Below are positions 1 to 61,677 of a DNA stretch of 64,000 bases, piece after piece. Position 1 is the first letter of the stretch, and every line of letters begins with the position of its first letter. The notes below the pieces were generated by a model. The model was given only the letters and a program-made list of their open reading frames with translations. It did no database searches and was not told the origin of the DNA. Source of the stretch: a bacterium ADurb.Bin236. Its GTDB lineage: Bacteria; UBP15; UBA6099. The stretch is taken from assembly GCA_002069885.1 (NCBI GenBank), contig MWCD01000006.1, positions 1-64,000 of the forward strand, read 5' to 3'. The translations under genes were made by a program, and so were the position numbers.

Positions 1-154
1 TGTTTTGTCTCCTAACCTTACAATCAGGAAGACCATGACCTTTTTTGCTATTTACACACTTTTCGGGATTTTATCACTTTCCATCTTCGTGCCTCCGTGC
101 CTTTGTGGTTAATTCCATTACCCGCGCATTATTTCCCTATCTTGCCCAATGAAC

Positions 155-246
155 ACGCGCCAAAGGCGGAGGCATGAAAGATTTAGGAAAGGGGCTTGGG
201 GAACAACCCTTTTCAAAGGGTTTTCCCCAACCGCCGCAGGCGGCTA
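155..246 (-). repeat. Modular hairpin repeat, partial copy (family X)
   Basis: Reverse-oriented partial copy of the interspersed family whose fullest copies lie at 21491-21682 and 21708-21890. Visible parts are a short GCC/GGC mini-hairpin at the 3' side (about 231-244), the main hairpin with AACCCTTTTCAAAGGG at its centre, and a stub of the second hairpin (GCGCCAAAG). The third hairpin is missing. The next copy begins about 50 bp further on, in the same orientation. Confidence 0.8.
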
Positions 247-298
247 CATCACTTCCCCTGCTTTTTTCTTTCTCCTTTTTTTCTTCTATATTTTTCCA

Positions 299-414
299 TA
301 ACACGCGCCAAAGGCGGAGGCGCAGCCCCGACATTGGCGCTAGCAGGAAAAATTTAGGAAAGGGGTTTGGGGAACAACCCTTTTCAAAGGGTTTTCCCCA
401 ACCGCCGCAGGCGG
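299..414 (-). repeat. Modular hairpin repeat, partial copy (family X)
   Basis: Second reverse-oriented copy, in tandem with the copy at 155-246 and nearly identical in its main hairpin. It keeps a complete second hairpin (GCGCCAAAGG ... TTGGCGCT, about 303-343) enclosing the GGCGCAGCCCC core seen in other copies. The rest of positions 1-550 holds no gene I can support. Confidence 0.8.
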
Positions 415-514
415 CAAAACATTCCCCCTCTTTTTTCTGCTTCTTCGCTTTTCCTTCTTCTTTCTTTCCCCAACCGCTTCGCCGCGACTCTTCCGCGACC
501 GCAGCCCCCGGCGC

Positions 515-1179: not shown

Positions 1180-1279
1180 CACGCCCGCGCATCGGCGATA
1201 ATGTGAAAAGTTTGGGAAAACGGGTTTGGGGAAACAACCCTTTTCAAAGGGTTTTTCCCCAATCGCCGAAGGCGAAAAA
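1180..1279 (-). repeat. Modular hairpin repeat (family X) after a stop codon
   Basis: Reverse-oriented copy directly downstream of the 550-1173 gene. It has the main hairpin (about 1225-1262), the AAAAGTTTGGGAAAA linker and the outer mini-hairpin CGCCGAAGGCG. The position would let the hairpin act as a transcription or mRNA 3' end, but it lacks a clean T-run like a classical intrinsic terminator. Confidence 0.8.
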
Positions 1280-1357
1280 ACCTTCTTTCCGTTTTCTCGC
1301 TTTTGGCTTTATGATCCGGATTCATTCCGCCCCGCCGCCGTCTCGCCATCCCCCGCA

Positions 1358-16047: not shown

Positions 16048-17151
16048 ATGAAATTCTTCTGTTCGAGGGACAAGCTGATAAAGAACTTACAGATAGCGCA
16101 GAGGGCTGTCGACGCTAAGAGCCAAGCTGCTGTCTTGAGAAATGTTCTCATGGACGCGTCTGGCGGGAAACTGAACCTTGTCGGGTACGACCACCGAATG
16201 GGGATCAGGACAAGCATAGACTGTCAGATAGACACAGAGGGCAGCATTACCGTTCCATGCGCGCTCCTGATTGACATTTTAGGTGTCATGCAGGAGGAAC
16301 AGGTCTACTTCACTCTTGAAGACAGCTCAATGAAAGTGGAGTGCGGAAGATCGAAGTATAACCTTTCGTGCATTTCTGCGGACGATTTCCCTCCTTTCCC
16401 GAAAATTGAAGGAAAAGACACATTCGAGATGGAAGCCGGCGTGCTCGAAACAGGGATTCGCCAGACAATATTTGCCACCAACCCTGACGACCACAGGGCT
16501 TTCATGGGCGGAGTCCTTCTCAACCTTGAAAAAAATGAAATCAAATTCGTGTCCACTGACGGGCACAGGCTGGCGATGAGAAAGTTCGACGTTCCCGGCG
16601 GCGCGCTGCCGACGCAGAAAGTGATAATTCCGACAAGGACGCTCAACGAGCTTCTTAGGATTCTGCCGGACGCGGGCGAGGAAAAAGTAAAAGTCACCGT
16701 CGACGTGAAATCAATATCTTTCACGCTGGACGGCGTGTTCGTCACCTCCCGGCTCGTCGAAGCGGAATATCCCAAGTTCGAAAAAGTCATACCCACCCGC
16801 GCGGAAGGCCAGTGCAGAATCAATAGGACTCGCATGATAGGCTCCGTCAGAGGCGCTTCCATCATGGCCAGATCAAAGGAAAACAGGGACCTCATCGAGA
16901 TAAATGTCACCGACGACAGCATAAAATTCACTTCCAGCACGCAGGACGTGGGCAGCGCGAGCGAAGAACTCGAAGTCGTCAAGAAGGGCAAGGACATCCG
17001 CGTCGCTTTCAACTCGAAATACATACTTGATTTCCTCGGCGCGGTGGAAGAGGACGAAGTGGTGTTCGACTACACCGAAGAGCTTGATCCCGGCCTCTTC
17101 CACACCGATATGCCCGGATACACATACGTCCTGATGCCGATCAAGGTTTAA
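16048..17151 (+). CDS. dnaN: DNA polymerase III beta subunit (sliding clamp)
   Basis: 367 residues. It forms the ring that tethers polymerase III to DNA. The start MKFFCSRDKLIKNLQIAQRAV is typical, the three clamp domains repeat in order, and the final strand YTYVLMPIKV ends in the P(I/V)(R/K) pattern conserved in clamps. ATG 16048 is chosen because AAAGGAG lies 9 bp before it; an in-frame extension upstream lies in the AT-rich gap and lacks conservation. The stop TAA overlaps the ATG of the next gene (TAATG). Confidence 0.97.
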   Translation: MKFFCSRDKLIKNLQIAQRAVDAKSQAAVLRNVLMDASGGKLNLVGYDHRMGIRTSIDCQIDTEGSITVPCALLIDILGVMQEEQVYFTLEDSSMKVECGRSKYNLSCISADDFPPFPKIEGKDTFEMEAGVLETGIRQTIFATNPDDHRAFMGGVLLNLEKNEIKFVSTDGHRLAMRKFDVPGGALPTQKVIIPTRTLNELLRILPDAGEEKVKVTVDVKSISFTLDGVFVTSRLVEAEYPKFEKVIPTRAEGQCRINRTRMIGSVRGASIMARSKENRDLIEINVTDDSIKFTSSTQDVGSASEELEVVKKGKDIRVAFNSKYILDFLGAVEEDEVVFDYTEELDPGLFHTDMPGYTYVLMPIKV

Positions 17152-17498
17152 TGGCGGCTGAAAAACGCCCACAACTCAAGAAGTTCGGGTCTGTTCTGGA
17201 CTACATAAAAAAAGTCTACGGAATAGACGAGAAAATTGAGTTGCACGAAGCCGTCAAAGACTGGCAGAGCATAGCGGGAGCGGACTTGGCGAAACATTCC
17301 AAGCCGCTCTTCTTCCAGAATCGAATTCTCTATATCGGAATCGAAGGCTCCGCATGGGCGCAGGAAATCTCATTCCGCAAACGAATGATTATCGACGGGG
17401 TGAACAACCGCCTCGGCCGCCCACATGTCAAAGACATCCGAACTCAACGCCTCGACGATAAAAACAACCGCCCATCAGACCGGAAAACCAAAAGATAA
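17151..17498 (+). CDS. dciA: DciA-type (DUF721) replicative helicase loader
   Basis: 115 residues of the DUF721 family. The core shows AVKDWQSIAGADLAKHSKPLFF, then GIEGSAWAQEISFRKRMIIDGVN. The SxWAQEL-like motif and the W-x5-G-x3-A-xHS pattern are characteristic. DciA proteins help load the DnaB helicase in bacteria that lack DnaC/DnaI. The gene is coupled to dnaN (TAATG) and takes the place often held by recF or gyrB. The C-terminal tail is Lys/Arg-rich. A family X repeat follows within 25 bp of the stop. Confidence 0.88.
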   Translation: MAAEKRPQLKKFGSVLDYIKKVYGIDEKIELHEAVKDWQSIAGADLAKHSKPLFFQNRILYIGIEGSAWAQEISFRKRMIIDGVNNRLGRPHVKDIRTQRLDDKNNRPSDRKTKR

Positions 17499-17521
17499 CA
17501 GCTTCAAAAAGTCGAAAAACA

Positions 17522-17710
17522 GAGGTGGTTGGGGTAAACCCTTTGAAAAGGGTTGTTCCCCAAACCCCATTCCCAAACGTTTTACTCTAGCGGCAAAGCC
17601 GGGGCTGCGCCCCCGCCTTTGCCGCTAATAATAATAAGCGATGTCGAAAACCGAGCGAAAAAAGGGGATTGGCAGCGCGCGTCCCAGCGATGTCTGTACC
17701 CTCTTTTCGC
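17522..17710 (+). repeat. Modular hairpin repeat, full-length copy (family X)
   Basis: Forward copy 24 bp after the dciA stop. Main hairpin at about 17530-17561 (GGGTAAACCCTTTG / AAAAGGGTTGTTCCC), linker, second hairpin AGCGGCAAAG ... CTTTGCCGCT (17589-17627), and third hairpin GCGAAAAAAGGGG ... CTCTTTTCGC (17655-17710). Confidence 0.85.
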
Positions 17711-17742
17711 GAGCACGGAGAATAGACTTTGCGCGGCTCACA

Positions 17743-17775
17743 CCCCCAAAGCGAGTTTGGGGATGGCGCCCAAGC
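17743..17775. repeat. CCCCCAAA/TTTGGGG palindromic repeat
   Basis: CCCCCAAAGCGAGTTTGGGG followed by a GGCGCC tail. A close copy lies at 26117-26153. The related sequence GGTGGCGCC recurs inside the neighbouring 17804-17936 element. Confidence 0.7.
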
Positions 17776-17803
17776 ACAACAAACAGACCCTTTTATACTG
17801 CCA

Positions 17804-17936
17804 CTTAATAGAAATTAGTCATTACCGGTCTCAATGAGGGTGGCGCCTTCAAGCGTTTTTTGCTTGTGGGTGCATATCATTTGCCGTCACCCACAACATG
17901 GTTGTGGGTGCCACCCAGTGGCTAATTTCTATTAAG
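17804..17936. repeat. 133-bp MITE-like element with terminal inverted repeats
   Basis: The ends CTTAATAGAAATTAG (17804-17818) and CTAATTTCTATTAAG (17922-17936) are perfect inverted repeats, extending to 17 of 18 bp. Inside are nested inverted repeats: GGGTGGCGCC against GGTGCCACCC, and a CACCCACAAC/GTTGTGGGTG hairpin (17888-17910). No coding capacity and no clear target duplication. I infer a non-autonomous mobile element or structured RNA. Confidence 0.65.
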
Positions 17937-18000
17937 CGCTACGTTAATACTTCAATACACCTTATTTTCGCCCCGATAACGCGCGCAGCATTTCGCGCGC

Positions 18001-18053
18001 TTTGGACTGCGGCGATTCATCGCCGCTTTGCTTTTCCGGGAATTTGTTCCCGG
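18001..18053. repeat. Half copy of the 26215-26324 palindrome plus CCGGGAA hairpin
   Basis: Positions 18001-18026 match 25 of 26 bases of the left arm of the large palindrome at 26215-26324. The matching right arm is absent. It continues into a CCGGGAA/TTCCCGG hairpin ending at 18053. Confidence 0.65.
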
Positions 18054-18110
18054 CTTTCCCTCTCTCCCCCCGCTCACAAAACAACAAACGCCACCCTACC
18101 CAACACAACC

Positions 18111-18166
18111 CGAAAAGCGGGCACAGGCAGCCGCAGAAACCGCGTTGCCAGTCCCCGTTTTTCGCT
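18111..18166 (+). repeat. GCGAAAA hairpin (third module), left flank of the islet
   Basis: 56-bp unit that differs from the unit at 19998-20053 at only six positions, in the same orientation. The two direct repeats bracket the AT-rich gene pair at 18341-19956. Confidence 0.8.
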
Positions 18167-18183
18167 CAAAGAGCAACATTCAA

Positions 18184-18212
18184 TTGACAATAAGCCCGCC
18201 CGATATGATATA
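18184..18212 (+). promoter_or_regulatory. Promoter for the 18.2-19.9 kb islet
   Basis: Exact TTGACA (18184-18189), 17-bp spacer, GATATA (18207-18212). It begins 18 bp after the hairpin repeat, so the repeat may have brought the promoter or its boundary. Confidence 0.55.
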
Positions 18213-18220
18213 GTGGAGCC

Positions 18221-18334
18221 ATGCAGAGAACAGCAAGAATACCGGAGACGATGGCAGGCGGGTGGGTGTTTCTTGTTTTTCCTAACAAGGAAAAACAGTA
18301 TAACATGACATATTATCAAGAGTATGGCGGGTAG
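18221..18334 (+). CDS. Possible 37-residue upstream ORF
   Basis: ATG 18221 follows GTGGAGCC (GGAG, 5-bp spacing) and sits 9 bp after the promoter -10 box. It encodes 37 residues beginning MQRTARIPETMAGG, with a short hydrophobic run (WVFLVFP), and ends with TAG 6 bp before the next ATG. It could be a leader peptide coupling translation to the downstream membrane gene, or a chance ORF. No family resemblance. Confidence 0.3.
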   Translation: MQRTARIPETMAGGWVFLVFPNKEKQYNMTYYQEYGG

Positions 18335-19996: not shown

Positions 19997-20182
19997 GCGA
20001 AAAGCGGGTACTGGCAGCCGAAGAAGACGCGTTGCCAATCCCCGTTTTTCGCTATGCTTTGACATGATAAGCGCCAAAGACGGAGGCGCAGCCCCGGATT
20101 TAGCGCTTGAGTGAAAAGTTTGGGAAAAGGGGCATGGGGAAAGAACCCTTTTCAAAGGGTTTTTCCCCAAACGCTAGAGGCG
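19997..20182 (-). repeat. Modular hairpin repeat, full-length copy (family X)
   Basis: Reverse-oriented copy lying between the converging lipoprotein and SDR genes. It runs from the third hairpin (19997-20053) through the second (AAGCGCCAAAG ... TTTAGCGCTT, about 20070-20110) to the main hairpin (20137-20170) and mini-hairpin. It forms the right flank of the islet. Confidence 0.85.
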
Positions 20183-20239
20183 AAAACTCATCCCCAACTC
20201 TTTCATCTTTAAATCGTTTTCCCGATAATTCGCGTTCAA

Positions 20240-21490: not shown

Positions 21491-21682
21491 TTTTTTCGCC
21501 TTCGGCGATTGGGGAAAAACCCTTTGAAAAGGGTTCTTTCCCCAAACCCCCTTTCCCAAACTTTTCACTCTGGCGCCAAAGCTGGAGCTGCGCTTCCATC
21601 TTTGGCGTTTATCATGTCAAAGCATTGCGATAAAAGGGGGACTGTCAACGCGTCACGCGCGGCTGTCTGTGCCCGGTTTTCG
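21491..21682 (+). repeat. Modular hairpin repeat, reference full-length copy (family X)
   Basis: All parts are visible in order: mini-hairpin CGCCTTCGGCG; main hairpin GGGGAAAAACCC/GGGTTCTTTCCCC around TTTGAAAA; AAACCCCCTTTCCCAAAC linker; second hairpin GGCGCCAAAG ... CTTTGGCG; TCATGTCAAAGCAT spacer; third hairpin GCGATAAAAGGGG ... CCGGTTTTCG. Confidence 0.88.
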
Positions 21683-21707
21683 ACAAAAACGAAAAAACCG
21701 AGAGTAG

Positions 21708-21890
21708 TTTTTTCGCCTTTGGCGATTGGGGAAAAACCCTTTGAAAAGGGTTCTTTCCTCATGCCCTTTTTTCCTAAACTTTTCACTCTAGCGCCAAAGT
21801 TGAAGCTGCGCTTCCAGCTTTGGCGCATATCATGGCAAAGCATTTCGAAAAAAGGGCGCTGGCAACGCGTCGCTCGCTTGCCCGCCCGGC
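21708..21890 (+). repeat. Modular hairpin repeat, tandem second copy (family X)
   Basis: Same orientation as the copy at 21491-21682 and starts 26 bp after it. Mini-hairpin CGCCTTTGGCG, main hairpin and second hairpin (AGCGCCAAAG ... CTTTGGCGC) are well kept; the third hairpin is degenerate. It ends about 45 bp before the methyltransferase start. Confidence 0.85.
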
Positions 21891-21934
21891 GCGCGCTGTG
21901 TACAATTCTTTCAAGTATTGCCGGAGGATATGTC

Positions 21935-25854: not shown

Positions 25855-25970
25855 GAGCCTCCGGCGGCCAAAGGGAACCTTTTGAAAAAGGTTCTCTTTG
25901 GAATCTCTCCAAAACTTTTCGATGCGCGGCGAATGATGTCGCTGCGCGACTTCTAATCCGCCGCTCATGC
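25855..25970 (+). repeat. Modular hairpin repeat, intermediate type (family X)
   Basis: Starts 10 bp after the ECH stop. Mini-hairpin GCCTCCGGCGGC, then CCAAAGGGAACC/GGTTCTCTTTGG around TTTTGAAAAA, linker CTCCAAAACTTTTC, and a second GCGCGGCGAA ... CCGCCGC hairpin. The wording is intermediate between the compact and the long types. Confidence 0.75.
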
Positions 25971-26024
25971 GATAATAGTCTGTGAAGACACTTTCATTTG
26001 AAGAAGGCGTGATCTGAGCGAGAG

Positions 26025-30680: not shown

Positions 30681-30728
30681 GGCGTTTTAGAGGCGGGGAA
30701 AGAGAAGAAGAAGGAAGGGGAGGGGGAG

Positions 30729-31010
30729 TTAAGAGAAAACTTTTGAAAAAGTTTTCCCTTAAAATCCCTTTCAAAACGTTTCAATGCGCGCGGCGAAGCA
30801 GGCGCGTTCGCGCCTGCGCTTCGCCGCGCTTATGTGAAAAGATATTGCGAAAAGGTTTTCAAAGGATTCTAGTTCATAAATGACTTTATATGGGACGTCG
30901 GGATGGAAGCGCGTTGGCGATTCTATCCCGACGGCCAGTGAAACGTTTTGAAGAGAATCCAAAGAGAAACTTTTTTAAAAGTTTCTCTTTGGCTGCAGGA
31001 GGCGCTGCTG
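30729..31010 (+). repeat. Long-form repeat with terminal inverted repeats (family X, long type)
   Basis: Best uninterrupted long copy, about 280 bp. The left end GAGAAAACTTTTGAAAAAGT...CCCTTTCAAAACGTTTC is mirrored at the right by GAAACGTTTTGAAGAGAATCC and CAAAGAGAAACTTTTT...AAGTTTCTCTTTGG, giving imperfect inverted ends of about 55 bp. The middle has a GC-rich hairpin (GCGCGGCGAAGC ... GCTTCGCCGCGC) and a CGTCGGGA/TCCCGACG hairpin. Confidence 0.8.
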
Positions 31011-51161: not shown

Positions 51162-51286
51162 CTTTTCGGCCTCCGTATAGTTGTGACGGGACGGCGAGCG
51201 CCGCCCGCGCGAAATTTTATCACATGCCCGCCCACGGGTCAAAATCGAGCGCGGGAGGATGGCAGAGGAAGTTATCAAAGGAAGCG

Positions 51287-51492
51287 TTAAGGGAAAACTT
51301 TTTCAAAAGTTTTCCCTCAAAAGCCCTTCAAAACTTCTCCTTGCGCGCGGCGAAGCGGGCGCGTTCGCGCCTCCGTCTTCGGCGCGTGTCATGGGAAAAG
51401 ATATTGGGAAAGGGTTTTCAGTGGAAGCTTGTTCATAAATGATTTTACAAGGGGCGTCGGGAGGGAAGCGAGTCAGCCGATAGACGCCCCAA
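51287..51492 (+). repeat. Long-form repeat, right end missing (family X, long type)
   Basis: Between the divergent glpK and prfC genes. It begins AAGGGAAAACTTTTTC and keeps the GCGCGGCGAAGCGGGCGCG hairpin and the AAAGATATTGGGAAAGGG block, but ends after GGGGCGTCGGGAGG without the right inverted end. Confidence 0.78.
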
Positions 51493-53605: not shown

Positions 53606-53900
53606 TAGGCAAAAGCGCGTCATGTGAAAAGATATTGGGAAAGAGTTTTCAGTGGAATCTGTTTCTATACATGTTATTAGTTGATTCAACCCACTACCAA
53701 GTGTGCCACGCATAAAGCTTTTTCCTTTATGCATGATGTATCCCCCCAAATAGTTAATGGGAACTTTCATTTAATTCTTCGTATAAATGATTTTTCATGG
53801 GGCGTCAGGAAAAGACGCGTTTTGCGTGTCTCTTCCCGACGACGATTGAAACGTTTTGAAGAAATACAAAGAGAAACTTTTTCAAAAGTTTCTCTTTGGC
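53606..53900 (+). repeat. Long-form repeat with internal insertion, left end missing
   Basis: Keeps the GTGAAAAGATATTGGGAAAG block, the ATAAATGATTTTTCATGGGGCG segment and the right inverted end (CAAAGAGAAACTTTTTC, 53867 on). About 118 bp (53668-53785) inserted in the middle include a GCATAAAG/CTTTATGC hairpin. The left main hairpin is gone. It ends 30 bp before the stop of the thymidylate-synthase-like gene. Confidence 0.7.
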
Positions 53901-53931
53901 TTCTTTCTTCTTTTTATTATCTTTGCCGTTT

Positions 53932-61291: not shown

Positions 61292-61300
61292 CGCGATGTT

Positions 61301-61677
61301 TAAGGGAAAACTTTTGAAAAAGTTTTCCCTTAAAATCCCTTTCAAAACGTTTCCTTGCGCGCGGCGAAGCGGGCGCGTTCGCGCCTGCGCTCCGCCGCGC
61401 TCATGTGAAAAGATATTGGGAAAGGGTTTTCAGTGGGATCCTATTCATAAATGATTTCACATCATGCGTTGCGCAACCACAACCGTAGGGGCGACCCTTG
61501 CGGTCGCCCGAAATGTTAAAAGGGCGGGGGCAAGCCCCGCCCCTACGATTACGATTTTAAATGGGGCGTCGGGAGGAGAAGCGCGTCAGCGATTCGCTCC
61601 CGACGGCCAGTGAAACGTTTTGAAGAGAATCCAAAGAGAAACTTTTTCAAAAGTTTCTCTTTGGCCGCCGGAGGCGC
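61301..61677 (+). repeat. Long-form repeat with a nested palindromic insertion
   Basis: Both inverted ends are present: AAGGGAAAACTTTTGAAAAA at the left and CAAAGAGAAACTTTTTC at the right. An insertion of about 95 bp (61463-61559) splits it. It fills the space between the stop codons of the converging 60473-61291 and MBL-fold genes, ending 2 bp before the latter. Confidence 0.85.
61484..61547. repeat. Nested 64-bp cloverleaf palindrome
   Basis: Outer stem CGTAGGGGCG/CGCCCCTACG, and inside GCGACC/GGTCGC and GGGCGGGG/CCCCGCCC hairpins. It interrupts the long-form repeat, so it was inserted later. Confidence 0.8.

Follow-up and report, generated by a model that had tools for sequence, protein, structure and literature searches.

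Dispersed head-out palindromic repeats in a UBP15 bacterium: a REP/BIME-like family that recurs across phyla, with a proposed role at transcript 3' ends

The window analyzed here, a stretch of 64,000 nucleotides from the UBP15 genome designated G000, holds 14 full-length main hairpins according to a covariance model built on ten of its own copies, and the elements to which they belong are listed in Table 1. The units follow a plan in which a GC tag or mini-hairpin is succeeded by a perfect main hairpin, a linker and a GC-rich second hairpin. The tag is a 12-bp GC-rich near-palindrome, GCCTCCGGCGGC or a variant of it, and is absent in some units. Aligned units start with GCCTCCGGCGGC or straight with the stem, and CGTC occurs only within the stem of the second hairpin. 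The linker in the unit ends in CAAAACTTTT or CAAAACGTTTC, and the second GC-rich hairpin is flanked by imperfectly complementary linkers. The main stem measures approximately 15 bp, the core 65 nt and the full unit approximately 150 nt. Three half-unit types with this common plan are present in the window, the linker ending in AAACTTTT or AAACGTTTC: the A-type, with stem and tip TTGGGGAAAACCC-TTTGAAAA-GGGTT, the L-type, the main hairpin of which carries GCCTCCGGCGGCCAAAGAGAAACTTTTGAAAAAGTTTCTCTTTGG, and the R-type, which carries TTAAGGGAAAACTTTTGAAAAAGTTTTCCCTTAA in its main hairpin and is without the mini-hairpin. A fourth type, L2 (GCCTCCGGCGGTTCAAGGAAACTTTGAAAAGTTTCCTTG), is present elsewhere in the genome. 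Many composites of approximately 275 bp occur genome-wide, in which two half-units are joined head-out, most commonly L with R. The composite folds as a cloverleaf with two outer hairpins, in which the two linkers pair together around two inner hairpins.

Table 1. Repeat elements of the 64-kb window, with strand and covariance-model score where given
Position	Strand	Element	Score (bits)
150..246	-	A-type, shortened: mini-hairpin, main hairpin 176-241, linker, second-hairpin remnant	78.4
296..422	-	A-type: mini-hairpin, main hairpin 347-412, linker, GC-rich second hairpin	80.8
1185..1285	-	A-type, main hairpin 1205-1273, degenerate second hairpin; gene stop 32 bp before	
17518..17720	+	A-type with second and third hairpins, main hairpin 17518-17583; gene stop 20 bp before	
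19997..20190	-	A-type, complete module set, main hairpin 20113-20181	
21491..21690	+	A-type, complete module set, main hairpin 21498-21566	
21708..21895	+	A-type, in tandem with the 21491..21690 unit, main hairpin 21715-21784	
25855..25990	+	L-type, solo, main hairpin 25857-25920; gene stop 13 bp before; closely similar to Desulfovibrio copies	
30726..31003		Composite: R half 30726-30782 (+) facing L half 30940-31003 (-); flanked by convergent genes	
51282..51450	+	R-type, solo half-unit	
53606..53904		Composite: left half without main hairpin, intact L half 53848-53904 (-)	
61297..61675		Composite: R half 61297-61353 (+), nested GTAGGGGCGACC... module at ~61484-61562, L half 61612-61675 (-)	

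Further repeats are associated with the elements. A second repeat, GTAGGGGCGACC...GGTCGCCC...GCCCCTACG, is nested at one interior position of several composites, the sites being 61484-61562 in the window and C30:11289-11661, C18:48515-48896 and C9:7999-8372 in G000. A module of ~120 bp with the hairpin TGCGCAAAGC-TTTTTCC-TTTGCGCA is recurrent in or beside elements, at ~53666-53795 in the window, where it is nested in the 53606..53904 composite, and in the stretches L222, L191 and L195.

A first-pass annotation of this DNA had described twelve copies sharing a single order of modules. Inspection of the sequence confirms the repeats at the positions given there, with TTTGAAAA or TTTTGAAAAA at the tip, a conserved linker and a GC-rich second hairpin. 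The common plan holds, but several copies deviate from the order. The mini-hairpin ascribed to every copy is missing from the R-type units at 30729, 51287 and 61301, the copies at 155 and 1180 end early after the main hairpin instead of showing the full order, and the third GCGAAAA hairpin is found in some A-type units only (17522, 19997 and 21491, degenerate at 21708) and not in the other copies. The copy at 53606, which had been taken for a unit of its own, has no main hairpin; it is a right-half remnant whose partner hairpin lies at 53848-53904 on the minus strand. The annotation had described half-units; the partners in inverted orientation, at 30940-31003 and at 61612-61675, were overlooked, so that 30729 and 61301 were not recognized as halves of composites.

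The composite at 30724-31006, treated as single-stranded DNA, folds below its shuffles with z = -11.5, and the single strand of 21491-21690 does so with z = -5.2. In 29 aligned L and L2 units, standard pairs make up 94.7% of cells, and changes on both sides are observed in 12 of the 24 pairs. Doubly changed cells number 52 compared with 11.9 in shuffles that ignore the relatedness of copies, and none of the 500 shuffles reaches the observed value on four of five measures. The paired stem changes reported in the first-pass annotation are borne out by these aligned copies, and the comparison with shuffles reveals pairing beyond chance. Because the shuffles are blind to relatedness, and since templated repair of palindromes also gives paired changes, the covariation indicates conserved pairing and is not proof of action as RNA. 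No known Rfam family, the kind of match that the annotation had set against its own reading, was found, either in the window at the gathering threshold or among representative copies at E 0.1 (0 matches each).

A genome-wide scan with a covariance model, as the annotation had proposed, gave matches across the own genome and its relatives. At least 144 were obtained in G000, corresponding to at least about 120 distinct places after removal of opposite-strand duplicates, with the best 150 of 3846 candidates scored. Three genomes of the same genus and one of the same family each gave at least 136-149 matches (best 150 candidates scored), and a genome from another family of the same order gave 4.

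Sites alignable to relatives, the flanks of which are mostly 88-95% identical, are nearly all occupied in both genomes, and those at 30726..31003 and 61297..61675 are also occupied in the relative G003. A half-unit of 151 bp has been gained or lost between C75 of G000 and G003, interior modules have been exchanged between C9 of G000 and C13 of G003 with matching ends, and the relative G001 retains one copy of the tandem pair 21491/21708. When window 1185-1285 is compared with L183, it can be observed that G001 has an R-type unit instead of the A-type, followed by a gene of ~1.5 kb that is missing from the window. A candidate for a clean empty site at C32:13574 of G003 was rejected, the entire spacer being replaced in G000 with no boundary readable. 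Since no clean empty site was found, the case for mobility consists of copy number, patchiness, and the gain and loss of modules. Between species, identity is 96.1% for the main hairpin, 93.1% for spacer, 92.8% for coding sequence and 86.3% for the element interior, the main hairpin differing from spacer with p = 9e-4 and from coding sequence with p = 3e-5. Among paralogs, the main hairpin and linker are ~95% identical and the second hairpin 76%. These sequence comparisons suggest that the outer hairpin, which changes slowly at sites that are old and fixed, is under selection or subject to gene conversion.

The family had been regarded as specific to this lineage. That view is not sustained, as the combination of tag, hairpin and tail is multicopy in Desulfovibrionales, Aminicenantes, Bacillota, an alphaproteobacterial MAG and SAR324. 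When GTDB genomes were scanned for tag, stem and AATC together, at least 116 stretches matched; among the matches listed, the lineages are Desulfovibrionales, Oscillibacter, Selenomonadaceae, other Bacillota, an alphaproteobacterial MAG, Lentisphaeria, Aminicenantes, SAR324 and UBP15. With at most 2 mismatches allowed, tag plus stem occurs 5 to 164 times in each carrier genome, compared with 0-2 times for the reversed control. Of 17 carrier genomes, 15 are matched by the window model, with full-length matches at E values of about 1e-17 to 1e-12 in Desulfovibrionales, Aminicenantes and a Bacillota isolate, among others. The best E values are 8.7e-17 in Solidesulfovibrio aerotolerans and 1.2e-16 in an Aminicenantes MAG, which gave 132 model matches; Bacterium D16-76 has a match at 3e-13. 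Cross-phylum matches span the tag, hairpin and tail, and the arms vary by lineage yet remain complementary. Across 24 unrelated control genomes, the model gave 9 matches in G029, which is a carrier as well, and a single weak match among the others. In a sample of 290 genomes, mostly from unrelated families, repeated exact tag-and-stem matches were found in G004 and G029 only; the distribution is therefore patchy, and this patchy spread is probably horizontal. Contamination of MAGs is ruled out as an explanation because several carriers are isolates. Phages or plasmids as carriers were rejected on the basis of no match in phage records, near-absence from viral contigs (7 of 2.9 million) and only a partial match in each of three Novosphingobium megaplasmids. 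A literature search with the tag or its complement returned unrelated human and viral papers only.

The placement of elements relative to genes was analyzed with a purpose-built simple codon-usage gene finder, on stretches that for G000 were picked around elements. In UBP15, 27 of the 51 spacers with an element are convergent, compared with 28 of the 262 that have none (Fisher p = 1e-10), and elements lie a median of 34 nt from an adjoining gene stop and 152 nt from an adjoining start. Of 25 solo units in UBP15, 21 turn the hairpin side toward a gene 3' end, which implies that in composites both convergent genes read tag, hairpin and linker in one direction. Element clusters lie inside called genes in 10 of 69 cases, probably in part through gene-calling error. 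Outside UBP15, divergent spacers account for 3 of the 49 with both neighbors called, and orientation to genes is mixed; with Pfam, some antisense neighbors prove real and others miscalled. The linker AATCTCTTCAAAAC after the main hairpin is weakly U-rich, with no canonical U-tract. Replacement of canonical terminators by the element was considered and rejected, as U-tract hairpins occur no less often at ends with an element (8/61) than at other convergent ends (10/87). Some units lie beyond a canonical terminator. The tag in reverse was also rejected as a ribosome-binding site of the downstream gene, the 7 of 116 tags in question falling inside the range of shifted controls.

The designation as REP/MITE-like in the first-pass annotation is apt insofar as the elements are short, dispersed, palindromic, mostly intergenic, biased to 3' ends and paired head-out; they are neither REPs of the RAYT type nor MITEs bearing target-site duplications. 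GTAG/CGTC REPs are 20-40 bp long and have an unpaired GTAG or CGTC tetranucleotide at one palindrome end, the stems of CGTC REPs being 8-9 bp with loops of 4-5 nt, and CGTC REPs are without a dedicated transposase (PMC3733652). The UBP15 units have no such end tag and fall outside that size, and they are REP-like in the broad sense of many dispersed intergenic palindromes with 3'-end bias. Their likeness to REP/BIME (PMC3733652) lies in the many dispersed palindromes, head-out pairs and intergenic, mostly gene-downstream positions, including convergent spacers, but they are larger, with stems of ~15 bp, several hairpins, a 12-bp GC palindromic tag and an A/T-rich tail. As in REPINs (PMC3116915), two inverted palindromes form one unit with no evident target-site duplication; unlike in the REPIN/RAYT system, the own genome and several high-copy carriers have no Y1 transposase. 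The elements also resemble bacterial MITEs of DDE insertion sequences in being short and non-coding, with inverted ends and nested insertions, but their ends are whole hairpins, a full-length parent was not found in the part of the genome read, and target-site duplication is not observed, flanking repeats of at least 4 bp occurring in 1 of 33 composites versus 1.04 by chance. In kind, they resemble the families of repeated intergenic stem-loops, of unknown role, that a survey of 40 genomes described (PMC2267715).

With regard to the mobilizer, PF01797 (Y1_Tnp) was not found in G000 (93% complete), G001 (97%) or G029 (100%), and Y1 transposase was not found in the carriers G032-G036, G040, G042-G044 and G046, among which G033, G034, G035 and G042 are high-copy; some other carriers do have it. 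RAYT/Y1 was rejected as the mobilizer on account of its absence from the own genome and several high-copy carriers. Candidates for an autonomous parent were rejected as well. In C13 of G003 (L205 ~16853-18221), the element orthologous to that at window 53848 has its second hairpin interrupted by an IS630-type transposase gene; the extra 1 kb at this site is an IS630-type insertion with its own ends inside the repeat and not a parent. The larger composite at C65:7020-8651 has no convincing gene. The stretch C12:26879-30556 (L199 6879-10556) contains, flanked by one L and one R half-unit, an acetyltransferase and an RloA/RloB-like pair (named by eye from the sequence; probable defense genes), and no transposase.

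We favor, with a probability of roughly 0.55, a REP/BIME-like dispersed palindromic family that was spread horizontally without Y1/RAYT and is retained for a two-sided role at transcript 3' ends. As non-autonomous mobile DNA, the family would have passed from one lineage to another by a route other than Y1/RAYT transposition. Copies would be retained where the outer hairpin serves as a two-sided 3'-end element, and this hairpin may terminate or protect the mRNA of each gene in a convergent pair. The weak U-tract and the mixed orientation outside UBP15 speak against a 3'-end element, and gene conversion could account for the slower change of the outer hairpin. More tentatively, the repeats may form a cross-phylum superfamily, defined by the tag GCCTCCGGCGGC, the hairpin and a AAAACTTTT tail, that moves horizontally through a non-RAYT mobilizer and gives its hosts two-sided 3' ends.

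The main rival is a selfish origin in which gene conversion acts on the ends. The elements would then be purely selfish non-autonomous mobile DNA that piles up at 3' ends since other insertions are harmful, and they would have no host function. Patchy high copy number across phyla, nested insertions and the gain and loss of half-units are in keeping with this, as is the avoidance of genes and promoter regions, which is typical of REPs (PMC3733652). Nevertheless, an outer hairpin that changes more slowly than spacer and coding sequence, at sites nearly all common to the species, would be unexpected unless gene conversion operates, and we regard a purely selfish family as somewhat doubtful. Mobilization of a REP/REPIN by a RAYT (Y1) transposase would account for palindromic head-out pairs that are intergenic, 3'-end-biased and without target-site duplication; it is largely refuted by the absence of the transposase (no Y1_Tnp in G000, G001, G029, G033, G034, G035 and G042), the unpaired GTAG/CGTC end tag is missing too, and it is accordingly rated very improbable.

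The remaining alternatives concern the transcript. The annotation had also offered a structured RNA, and a cis-acting one, a 3'-UTR regulatory RNA or small RNA kept for its fold, agrees with the covarying stems and the mostly sense position of UBP15 solo units. It is nonetheless unlikely: composites can be read from either strand, units outside UBP15 commonly occur in both orientations, Rfam gives no match even at E 0.1, and DNA palindromes under templated repair would covary equally. Ordinary intrinsic terminators that became alike by convergence are scarcely credible. A stable hairpin shortly past stop codons would fit them, and some units are terminator-like (30992, minus strand), but convergence does not predict tag, linker and tail sequences common to several phyla, there is no strong U-tract past the stem, and some units are situated beyond a canonical terminator.

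Repeats of this type are as a rule associated with a single lineage or with a RAYT transposase of the host. In the present case, approximately the same 65-nt core recurs in several phyla, isolates included, in genomes without a RAYT transposase, so that the spread of palindromic repeats could be tested in culturable members of the Desulfovibrionales. Should the hairpins define transcript ends, the family would represent a mobile source of gene-end signals suited to convergent pairs. In Desulfovibrionales-type contigs, tandem GCCTCCGGCGGC tags are spaced 25-28 bp apart (L092 1098-1179 and L143 3600-3625), suggesting local amplification of a short unit.
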